From NCBI GenBank assembly GCA_025057455.1, contig JANWWY010000010.1, forward strand, positions 10,479 through 42,848: 32,370 nucleotides of DNA. The letters are read 5' to 3'. Under the pieces are notes generated by a model. That model was not told the origin of the DNA and did not search any database. It saw only the letters and a list, made by a program, of their open reading frames with translations. Shown here one piece after another: positions 4,842 through 8,159 of this stretch. A program made the position numbers and the translations under genes. Within the stretch, counting starts at the first letter, position 1; every line of letters starts with the position of its first letter. Source of the stretch: Aquificaceae bacterium. GTDB taxonomy: Bacteria; Aquificota; Aquificia; Aquificales; Aquificaceae.

Positions 4842-7022
4842 ATGTGGAGAGTTGTGTATACAGGTCAGAGACCACACTACGAAAACATAGCCTTGGATAG
4901 AATTATGCTTGACCTTATGTACGAGGGCAAAATTCCGCCTACCATAAGGTTTTTGCAGTTTAAGCCGGAGTGCGTCCTCATAGGCTTTCACCAGTCTGTC
5001 GAGCAAGAGGTAAGGCTTGAATACACGCAAAGAGAGAACATACAGGTAGGTAGGAGAATAACGGGCGGGGGTGCCATATACTTTGACGAGACCCAGATAG
5101 GTTGGGAGGTTATAGCCACCACCGACCAGTTTGGAGGGCTAAACTACGAGGAACTTACCAGAAGGATATGCACCGGTGTGGCGAAGGGACTTCAAAGGCT
5201 TGGAATAAAGGCTGAGTTTAGACCAAGAAACGACATAGAAGTGGACGGCAGAAAAATATCGGGCACAGGGGGTGTTTTTGAAGGAAAGGCATTCCTATAT
5301 CAGGGCACCATTCTTATGGACTTCAACGTGGAAAGAATGCTAAAGTCCCTACAGATACCCGTGGAAAAGCTAACCTCTAAAGGCATAAAGTCTGCGGAGG
5401 ACAGGGTCGAGTGGGTAAAAAGAGCTTTGGGATACCTTCCGCAGAAGGAGGAGGTCTTTAAAGCCATCCTGGAAGGCTTAGAAGAAGAGCTAAGAATAAA
5501 AGCCTACTGGGGTAAGCTGACAGAGGAGGAGCTTAGGCTACTTGAGGAAAAGAGCCCATACTTTGCAAGCGAGGAATGGATATACCACGTGAAGAAAGCA
5601 CCTTTGGAGGACGAGATGCTCTTTGGCATATACAGATGTCCGGGGGGCACCTTTAGAGTATCCGCAAAGGTGGACCTTCACAGCAAGCTTCTACAGCAGG
5701 TTATAATAAACGGGGACTTCTTCGTAAAACCCCAGAGGCTCATATACGACCTTGAGGCTTACCTAAAGCACACGCCTCTTTCGGACGTAGAAAAGAGAAT
5801 AAGAGAATTTTTCTCAAGTAGGGAATGGGAAGGCTTAAACCTAAGCGTGGAGGACTTTGTGGAGGCTATTCTCTTTCCCCTCAGGAAGGTAGAGGGCTTA
5901 GACTTGGGTATTGAAAAAAAAAGGCTGAATAACATAATAGCTTCCATAGGTGGTGGTCTTATAGAAAACCTTCAGAAAGCAAAGGTTATGCTCCTACCCT
6001 ACTGTGCCAAGCCAAGATGGTGTGATTATAGGCATCTTGATGACTGTGGAGAGTGTGGAGGGTGCACCGTTGGGGATGCTTACAGACTTGCCTATCAAAA
6101 AGGCATGATACCCATAACCATTACATCCTTTGAGCTTTTGAGGGATACACTACTGTGGTGTGCTCAAAATGGCTATACCTACGTAGGGCATTGTTGTTAT
6201 GAGTTTTATGAAAAGAGGTATGAAATTTTTAGGAGGGCTTCTGAAGAGGGTGCAAAAGGTGTGCTTTTTGATATTGTGGGAACAACCTGCTACAGCCTTG
6301 GTGTAGAAGAAGAAGAAAGGGCATATCATGGAGAGTTTACCGTGGAGCTTGACCTAATAAAAGAAGACCTATACAGGAGCCTATCCATAAAAGAGGATAT
6401 GCAAGAATGTAACCAAAGGTCAGAGAACAGTTTTGACTACTCTCCCTATCTTTTAGACTTTAAGCCCTCCTACTACAAAAAACCCAAAGCTGTACCAACA
6501 CCACAGGAAGATAGAACAAGAACCTCCATGCAGAAAGAGGTTTTCTTGGGCGAAGCCACCATAGAGGAAAGCGTGGTGGACTACAAGGAAGCTCTGAAGA
6601 CCTTAGCAAGTTGGATAAGGGAATCGGAAAGGCCTACAGTAGTTGTGGGTCCTCTTCTTTTCTGGGATTTTGGCGAAAAGAGCCTTCAGGAAAAGGCGAA
6701 GGCTCTGAGAGAGCTTATAGAAAAGGTAGAGAAGTTCAACATAAAGGTTTTGCCCGACTATAGGCCAAAGCTGAAAAAGTACGACCCTAATGTGGAAATG
6801 GACCCACCAAACCCTCACCATGCGATATTGCACGGAAAACACGACCTTACCCTGCTTGTAGGCGTTCATTGCTACAGGACAGACTTTGTGATTAGACTTC
6901 TCAGAAAACACACGGACACGAGAGTGGTAGCCCTGTGCGGACTTTACGGACATCCCACCGCACATCTTTCCACGAGTTTTACCGATGCGGAGAAGTTGGA
7001 GGATTTGATAAGGATTCTGTAG
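4842..7022 (+). CDS. Lipoate-protein ligase / DUF116 / CODH-beta-like three-domain fusion
   Basis: A 726-residue protein with three parts. Residues 1-300 are a lipoate-protein ligase A: RRITGGGAIYFD (71-82) is the lipoyl-AMP loop, NDIEVDGRKISGTGG (130-144) holds the catalytic-type lysine K138, and 225-310 looks like the accessory domain. Residues 383-505 match DUF116: C388, C394, C402, C405, C408, then HCC at 450-452 and C483 could bind a metal or cluster. Residues 575-726 resemble the CO dehydrogenase beta/epsilon (CdhB-like) fold, with TVVVGPLLFWDF at 599-610 and LLVGVHCYRTDF at 671-682. AGGAGGT precedes the ATG. It probably attaches lipoate to H-protein-like carriers; the roles of the two C-terminal domains are unknown. 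The CdhB-like call is the least certain part. Confidence 0.8.
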   Translation: MWRVVYTGQRPHYENIALDRIMLDLMYEGKIPPTIRFLQFKPECVLIGFHQSVEQEVRLEYTQRENIQVGRRITGGGAIYFDETQIGWEVIATTDQFGGLNYEELTRRICTGVAKGLQRLGIKAEFRPRNDIEVDGRKISGTGGVFEGKAFLYQGTILMDFNVERMLKSLQIPVEKLTSKGIKSAEDRVEWVKRALGYLPQKEEVFKAILEGLEEELRIKAYWGKLTEEELRLLEEKSPYFASEEWIYHVKKAPLEDEMLFGIYRCPGGTFRVSAKVDLHSKLLQQVIINGDFFVKPQRLIYDLEAYLKHTPLSDVEKRIREFFSSREWEGLNLSVEDFVEAILFPLRKVEGLDLGIEKKRLNNIIASIGGGLIENLQKAKVMLLPYCAKPRWCDYRHLDDCGECGGCTVGDAYRLAYQKGMIPITITSFELLRDTLLWCAQNGYTYVGHCCYEFYEKRYEIFRRASEEGAKGVLFDIVGTTCYSLGVEEEERAYHGEFTVELDLIKEDLYRSLSIKEDMQECNQRSENSFDYSPYLLDFKPSYYKKPKAVPTPQEDRTRTSMQKEVFLGEATIEESVVDYKEALKTLASWIRESERPTVVVGPLLFWDFGEKSLQEKAKALRELIEKVEKFNIKVLPDYRPKLKKYDPNVEMDPPNPHHAILHGKHDLTLLVGVHCYRTDFVIRLLRKHTDTRVVALCGLYGHPTAHLSTSFTDAEKLEDLIRIL

Positions 7023-7100: not shown

Positions 7101-8159
7101 ATGATAAGAATAATAGAGCCAAGGTTTTCTGAGGAAGAAAAGGAGATTGTCCTGGAAATTCTCGAAAGCGGCCATGTTACCAGGGGAAAGTGGACAGCCC
7201 TTTTCCAGGAGGAGTTTGCCAGGTATTTGGGCGTAGACTACGTGTTTACTGTGTGTTCTGGAACTGTTGCCCTTTTTGTAGCCTTGAAAGCCCTCGGAGT
7301 AGAAGGTAGGCATGTGATAGTTCCAGCCATGAGCTTCATGGCTACCATAGATGCGGTGTATCTTGCAGGTGGAATTCCAGTGGTGGTAGATGTGGACCAG
7401 TTTTATACCATGGACCCAAACCAGTTGGAAGATGCGGTAAAGAGATACAATCCAAAGGTGGTAGTGCCGGTGCATCTTTACGGTCAGACCGCTGATATGG
7501 ACGCCATCATGTGGCTCTCTGACAGATACGGCTTTTATGTACTCGAAGACTCAGCCCAAGCACACGGTGCTCTATGGAAGGGCAAAAAAGCAGGTAGCAT
7601 AGGTCATTTGTCAGCCTTTAGCTTTTACGCTTCAAAAAACGTACCCATGGGTGAGGGTGGTGCAGTAGCTACATCAGACCCAAAGATTGCCCAGGAAATT
7701 AAAAAGTGGATAGACTTTGGAGAACATCCAGCCTTTAATGTAAGGATAACGGAATTTCAAGCTGGTTTGGGCTACGCACAACTCAAAAAAGTTGAGGAAA
7801 ACAACTCAAGGAGAAGGGAGATAGCCTTCAAATATATGCAAACCCTTAACGGTGGCTTTGTGCATCCCGTAGAGAGAGAAGGATGCTTGCATGTCTACCA
7901 TCTTTACACCCTGAGGCATCCTCAAAGGGACAAAATTATAGAGGCACTGAAGGTAAATGGCATAGATGCCAGAGTGTACTATCCCTATCTACTTCACGAA
8001 CTTAGAGGAGCAGAGCATCTACCTACACCGAACGCGGAAAGCTTTAGAAAAGAGGTTTTCTCCATACCTGTGCATCCATACCTTACAGAAGAGCAGGTAG
8101 ACCTTATTGTTGATTCTCTTTTGTCTGTGGTCGGGTTAGCTCCGCACCCCTTATGTTGA
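7101..8159 (+). CDS. DegT/DnrJ/EryC1-family PLP sugar aminotransferase
   Basis: This 352-residue protein belongs to the fold-type I aminotransferases that put amino groups on nucleotide-linked keto sugars for surface glycans. Seen in order: CSGTVALFVALKALG (52-66) phosphate-binding region, PAMSFMATIDAV (75-86), LEDSAQAHGA (148-157) with D150 for the PLP pyridine nitrogen, and FSFYASKN (173-180) with K179 as the Schiff-base lysine. The exact sugar substrate cannot be told. It has no co-directional neighbour within 78 bases and its 3' end overlaps motB, which runs the other way, by 56 bases. Confidence 0.88.
   Translation: MIRIIEPRFSEEEKEIVLEILESGHVTRGKWTALFQEEFARYLGVDYVFTVCSGTVALFVALKALGVEGRHVIVPAMSFMATIDAVYLAGGIPVVVDVDQFYTMDPNQLEDAVKRYNPKVVVPVHLYGQTADMDAIMWLSDRYGFYVLEDSAQAHGALWKGKKAGSIGHLSAFSFYASKNVPMGEGGAVATSDPKIAQEIKKWIDFGEHPAFNVRITEFQAGLGYAQLKKVEENNSRRREIAFKYMQTLNGGFVHPVEREGCLHVYHLYTLRHPQRDKIIEALKVNGIDARVYYPYLLHELRGAEHLPTPNAESFRKEVFSIPVHPYLTEEQVDLIVDSLLSVVGLAPHPLC

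Follow-up and report, generated by a model that had tools for sequence, protein, structure and literature searches.

A run of nine adenines at the ligase/DUF116 junction suggests that an Aquificaceae sLpl(AB)-type lipoate ligase gene yields two products

Lipoate:protein ligases of the sLpl(AB) type belong to the sHdr-LbpA / LipS1-LipS2-LipT route (Tanabe et al. 2023, PMC10332631; eLife 2018, PMC6067878), and the known ones are single-purpose proteins of about 345 aa encoded in operons; for Aquificae, the maturation genes were placed in the hdr-lbpA operon (PMC6067878). Transcriptional slippage is described for dnaX of T. thermophilus, in which a run of nine A (A9) yields about half short product, and a 9A run of conserved length among homologues is considered very likely to reflect purposeful slippage (Baranov et al., PMC1088944). 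The gene examined here resembles both systems. Its ligase domain is like sLpl(AB) and its genome contains sHdr, LbpA, LipS1 and LipT, but the gene stands alone and carries a fused DUF116 domain and a domain like the delta subunit of 2-oxoacid:ferredoxin oxidoreductases (OFORs), the parts being separated by a predicted A9 slippage site. Like dnaX, it is one gene with an A9 run, an early stop after a shift, and full-length and short products, which here are predicted; unlike the clamp-loader gene, it encodes a cofactor ligase, its in-frame and out-of-frame states occur within one family, and other lineages have two genes in its place.

The window, a stretch of 32,370 nucleotides of DNA from a hot-spring Aquificaceae bacterium, contains at 4842..7022 (+ strand) a single continuous ATG-TAA frame of 726 aa, composed of an sLpl(AB)-type lipoate/octanoate:protein ligase, DUF116 and the OFOR-delta-like domain. 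A Pfam search by domain recovered LplA/LplB, PF02552 with a strong match and DUF116 with a weak one. The LplA catalytic domain (residues 12-213; 4875..5480, +) bears RRITGGGAIYFDETQIGWE and RPRNDIEVDGRKISGTGG and matched both LplA-B_cat (PF21948, 7.6e-45) and LplA structures, whereas the LplB or C-terminal accessory domain (residues 265-343; 5634..5870, +) matched Lip_prot_lig_C (PF10437, 1.3e-3) and NCBIfam LplB (4.6e-12), in agreement with the original prediction of one open frame with the LplA motifs. The whole protein was modelled confidently with AlphaFold2 (pLDDT 88, pTM 0.72), and a fold search found that the ligase part of the model resembles LplA lipoate ligase structures (E about 2e-23). 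The same fusion, sought across Aquificota, was present throughout Aquificaceae with the same domain order and absent from one genus.

Outside Aquificota, the nearest relatives were the sLpl(AB) ligases of lipS1-sLpl-lipT-lipS2 operons and two-domain LplA-DUF116 proteins. The ligase domain was 42-48% identical to sLpl(AB) over residues 2-350, has the LplA catalytic and LplB domains with intact motifs, has its nearest counterparts in the sLpl from organisms with LipS1/S2, and is found together with LipS1/S2. An operon with lipS1, lipT and lipS2, which is usual but not universal for sLpl(AB), was not found, as these genes are scattered in Aquificaceae. One contig of the window's genome carries hdr genes, two LbpA-like H proteins, DsrE and LipS1 in the order hdr-lbpA-dsrE-lbpA-lipS1, and LipT (325 bits) was present away from it. 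Because its own genome has this sHdr-LbpA-LipS1 cluster, the gene probably encodes the sLpl(AB) ligase that had been missing from the sHdr/LipS1-S2 pathway of Aquificaceae. In contrast to the gene placement given in PMC6067878, only lipS1 lies in the hdr-lbpA operon of this genome (C13, C22, C1), with the ligase and lipT elsewhere. The genome also encodes a second LplA/LipM-type protein of 266 aa (L004 1444-2229, -), possibly a GcvH octanoyl or lipoyl transferase.

Among 136 Aquificota genomes, which are related so that the counts are non-independent, and with weak LipS2 matches under 100 bits left out, DUF116 and LipS2 occurred together in 51, DUF116 only in four, LipS2 only in three and neither in 78. 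The LipT distribution paralleled that of DUF116 and LipS2, and one Aquificaceae genus (g10; G058-G061) was without the fusion, LipS2 and LipT, all three together. A profile search did not find LipS2 in the window's own assembly, although this contains LipS1, LipT and the fusion, and synteny with genome G036 ended before LipS2. The two-domain LplA-DUF116 proteins of archaea and Caldisericia, and those with diverged LplA in sHdr Proteobacteria, share the first two domains but have neither the delta domain nor the A9 run. In Thermoplasmatales (L045), lipT, lipS1 and lipS2 come after such a gene, and in Caldisericia (L043) lipT does, at the contig end. The sLpl relatives, the LipS2/LipT co-distribution and the hdr-LbpA-LipS1 contig of the same genome together make LbpA very likely to be the carrier loaded by this ligase. 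They also bear out the earlier proposal of a link to sHdr/LbpA sulfur oxidation, and the LipS2- and LipT-like distribution of the fusion agrees with extra domains that are conserved and tied to lipoate assembly. The "self-contained" assembly factor that had been envisaged found no support, since LipS1, LipS2 and LipT are separate genes.

Two neighborhoods of these pathway genes held further genes. Upstream of the LplA-DUF116-lipT-lipS1-lipS2 cluster of L045 lies a SAMP2/ThiS-type sulfur-carrier-like gene (7286-7609), which was dropped as pathway evidence because the two are nearly 400 bp apart and the spacer contains a tRNA-like stretch. In two Aquificaceae genomes, genes for an encapsulin-type shell protein (Linocin_M18, 4e-69) and a VWA-domain protein adjoin lipT (L183 13871-14716 and 12027-13871; L184 2137-2985).

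The second domain, DUF116-like (PF01976), spans about residues 362-523 (5925..6410, +). The Pfam match itself covered residues 356-427 at 4.6e-5 and 23.4 bits in the protein search, against a curated cut-off of 25, and reached 25.9 bits in the genome search. The two-domain relatives, however, were 37-47% identical across the entire domain and scored 42-44 bits on the DUF116 profile, which supports placing the window's domain in this family. Eight cysteines were invariant in an alignment of 13 diverse domains: a first block of C388, C394, C402, C405 and C408 (6003..6065, +), then C451-C452 in GHCCYEFY (6192..6197, +) and C483 in TTCY (6288..6290, +), in line with the cysteine-rich block from C388 to C483 claimed originally. 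The isolated domain gave a confident model (pLDDT 89, pTM 0.86), which resembled no solved structure in a Foldseek search (best E 0.05). The eight-cysteine domain is probably a metal or Fe-S/thiolate site. We found no paper in the open-access literature that links DUF116 to lipoate.

The third domain (residues 573-719; 6558..6998, +) matched PF02552 (CO_dh) at 1.5e-31 and 109.9 bits. Two further strong PF02552 copies were found in the genome (at C9 and C4), both adjoining genes that by eye read as POR/OGOR alpha-type (2-oxoacid:ferredoxin oxidoreductase), and the fused domain has the DYRPK, ILH, GxHC (here GVHC) and C..GH (here LC..GH) motifs in common with both of these delta paralogues. The ACDS-epsilon equivalog TIGR00315 (cdhB) scored 16.1 bits against a cut-off of 101, and PDB CODH epsilon chains matched only at E about 1, so a CODH epsilon identity was rejected. 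Thus, of the "CODH-beta-like" domain proposed earlier, the PF02552 similarity stood and the CODH assignment did not, and with the shared delta motifs the domain is better read as OFOR-delta-like; by sequence it appears nearer the delta subunit of five-subunit 2-oxoacid:ferredoxin oxidoreductases. It shares PF02552, the DYRPK/GxHC/C..GH motifs and 31-34% identity with the PFOR/OGOR delta of Aquificaceae (PMC10052474), from which it differs in being the C-terminal part of a lipoate ligase. The conserved His/Cys motifs ILH, GxHC and C..GH of the OFOR delta subunits (L002 1318-2031; L003 1423-1992) are a possible ligand site, and the CODH epsilon chain that we retrieved is without them.

At the ligase/DUF116 junction, GGT ATT GAA AAA AAA AGG CTG AAT AAC, lies a run of nine A (5914..5922, +; codons E358-K359-K360-R361), the only A9/T9 within the window and a predicted transcriptional slippage site, which the original prediction did not mention. 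The run was exactly nine long in 33 of 34 distinct in-frame Aquificaceae genes and ten in the remaining one, fitting the slippage genes described, in which a run of at least nine A keeps its length among homologues. It was also present in the orthologues of closed genomes G009, G036, G037, G039, G050, G052 and G057, and in that of G001, which we take to be A. aeolicus VF5. Three codon registers occurred (GAA AAA AAA AGG, AAA AAA AAA GAG and GAT AAA AAA AAA CTC); therefore, nucleotides and not amino acids are conserved at the run. The lysine codons of these genes favor AAG (1311, versus 729 AAA), and under a synonymous null with each gene's own codon usage the per-gene probability of A9 was 0.001-0.23; multiplied over 20 genes that are less than 80% identical in DNA, this comes to about 1e-30 when these are taken as independent despite their common ancestry. 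As a control with the same ancestry, we compared 26 conserved lysine columns; the two at the junction were 100% AAA, whereas the others ranged from 9 to 73%. Furthermore, across 427 Aquificota ORFs (430 kb), no coding-strand run reached nine A outside this gene, and whole genomes had few A9/T9 runs, closed genome G036 having just this one. We found no report in the open-access literature of slippage in a lipoate ligase gene.

In the shifted frames, loss of one A would lead to a TGA at 5926..5928 (+) and a 361-aa lone ligase ending EKKG, and gain of one A, or a -1 ribosomal shift, to a TAA at 5930..5932 (+) and a 363-aa lone ligase ending EKKKAE. A one-A shift met a stop 3-11 codons after the run start in 34 of 34 genes. 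The second product would thus be a sensible one, as in known slippage genes: a complete ligase of about 360 aa, close in length to sLpl(AB) proteins that stand alone, such as the 343-aa one of Hydrogenobaculum. In seven further genomes, all metagenome assemblies whereas closed genomes are all in frame, the ligase frame ended at the run and DUF116-delta went on in another frame. The run was A9 in six of these copies and A8 in the seventh, all seven would be rejoined by one more A or a -1 shift, and the tree indicated at least four independent frame breaks. Start codons ahead of M384 are almost absent from the DUF116 frame of the broken copies, although this upstream sequence is conserved. The run has very probably been selected for making two products. 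The gene would thus very probably make two products and not the fusion alone.

In Hydrogenobaculum, the fused ligase is degenerate: the N-terminal strand, GGG loop and segment with the catalytic lysine are gone. Hydrogenobaculum has a separate intact ligase gene and no A run; its DUF116 and delta domains remained 87-89% and 70-74% identical, respectively, to those of the window. Because DUF116 and delta are kept with a degenerate fused ligase and a separate ligase, the module would act beyond ligation, which gives no support to the earlier suggestion that these domains help with attachment. Eight of 17 sHdr proteobacterial genomes probed have a second gene of the LplA-like-DUF116 type, its ligase part diverged. 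At four Thioalkalivibrio loci, this gene directly precedes the lipS1-sLpl operon and is read in the opposite direction, on the (-) strand (L050 4896-6596; L051 4670-6439; L047 5068-6960; L057 1899-3719), with lipS1 as the divergent neighbor in L050 and L051. The Thioalkalivibrio gene goes unnamed in the papers examined. Since run-less Hydrogenobaculum and proteobacteria have a separate ligase and a DUF116-bearing gene, the same pair would come from two genes there and, by inference, from one gene where the run is present. Archaeal and Caldisericia two-domain genes are also without the run. In one proteobacterial order (47 genomes), a DUF116 protein occurred in 24 genomes, 21 of them with LipS2, and 18 of 39 LipS2 genomes were without a DUF116 protein. 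The module is therefore accessory in that order, and a strict need of LipS1/S2 for DUF116 was ruled out.

Taken together, the conserved A9 length, the early stops after shifts, the frames that break at the run and the absence of the run from Hydrogenobaculum make it very probable that programmed slippage makes a lone ligase plus the fusion. The two products could also come from -1 ribosomal frameshifting on A_AAA_AAA, a slippery heptamer contained in every A9 run, and the broken genes all need a shift in this one direction. No downstream stem or upstream Shine-Dalgarno-like stimulator is conserved at the run among the homologues, however, which favors transcriptional slippage, and a run that shifts register yet stays exactly nine fits slippage by the polymerase. 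Transcription is the likely step at which the frame changes, and a ribosomal shift appears unlikely.

That the fusion is the sole product, with A9 a by-product of a Lys-rich linker and codon bias, broken frames that are assembly errors and extra domains that tune or guide ligation, seems improbable. The closed genomes are in keeping with it, and indels are possible in MAGs. Nevertheless, the junction lysines are all AAA against the AAG preference, the nine A retained in six of seven broken copies indicate that run length was not misread, A9 is nearly absent from other Aquificota ORFs and genomes, and the degenerate Hydrogenobaculum ligase speaks against a module serving ligation alone. Slightly less credible still is a separate DUF116-delta product made without frame change from an internal start at M384, just before LLPYC. 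This ATG is conserved and nearly the sole usable start in the broken copies, but its use would remove the first strand and helix of DUF116, AAGG lies just 2-3 nt ahead of it, and conservation of the preceding protein sequence in broken copies too indicates that it is translated. A phase-variation tract, in which DNA indels toggle the DUF116-delta module between strains, would suit a homopolymer whose in-frame and broken states both occur among genomes; it is very improbable given a length fixed at nine across the family, a metabolic and not a surface gene, and at least four breaks that mostly retained A9. Finally, the delta-like domain is hardly credible as a replacement of LipT as electron input for LipS1/S2, because although its paralogues belong to ferredoxin-linked enzymes (PMC10052474), LipT occurs alongside the fusion in Aquificaceae, the window's own genome included.

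In the proposed mechanism, RNA polymerase would slip on A9 at the ligase/DUF116 joint, so that the nine-A mRNA gives the three-domain protein and mRNA with one A more or fewer gives the lone ligase, in shape a counterpart of the sLpl(AB) that other sulfur oxidizers encode separately. This shorter product would put octanoate or lipoate on LbpA, the carrier of the sHdr sulfur-oxidation complex. The DUF116-delta form would be a second factor of the same pathway, in which the ligase fold, active or degenerate, holds the carrier, the eight-cysteine domain serves a later sulfur-insertion or redox step, and the delta domain is a docking or ligand domain. As a whole, an sLpl(AB)-type ligase of the LipS1/S2-LipT route that loads LbpA and is encoded by an A9-slippage two-product gene, with the DUF116-delta form as second pathway factor, is a fairly likely reading of these sequence comparisons. 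That DUF116-delta acts downstream of ligation, in inserting sulfur or in Fe-S/redox supply, is suggested more tentatively by the eight conserved cysteines, the pathway neighbors and the persistence of the module where its ligase part is no longer active. Similarly tentative is the fuller proposal that polymerase slippage at the domain boundary yields the sLpl ligase and an undescribed lipoate-biosynthesis factor, DUF116-delta, which might supply sulfur or an Fe-S cluster to LipS1/S2, the pair being two genes in other lineages.

A9 recoding and sLpl ligases are each of a known kind, and neither their combination nor the LplA-DUF116(-delta) component was found in the open-access literature. This analysis would identify the ligase that the sHdr/LipS1-S2 pathway of Aquificaceae was missing, and LplA-DUF116 would be a previously undescribed pathway component, overlooked by searches for standalone ligases. 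The predicted site would add a strongly conserved case of recoding to the few chromosomal genes using polymerase slippage, and the Hydrogenobaculum state is a natural experiment in which ligation is separated from the DUF116-delta function. Gene callers will read the out-of-frame copies as two genes or as pseudogenes. A broken Thermocrinis copy (L031 8001-9993), in which the junction region is missing, has another A9 run at about residue 230 and may be a pseudogene, an assembly error or a second slippage case. The Aquificaceae fusion, 85% identical, also occurs in a record labelled Acidobacteria (L018, isolate J001), which is probably a misassigned MAG or contig.
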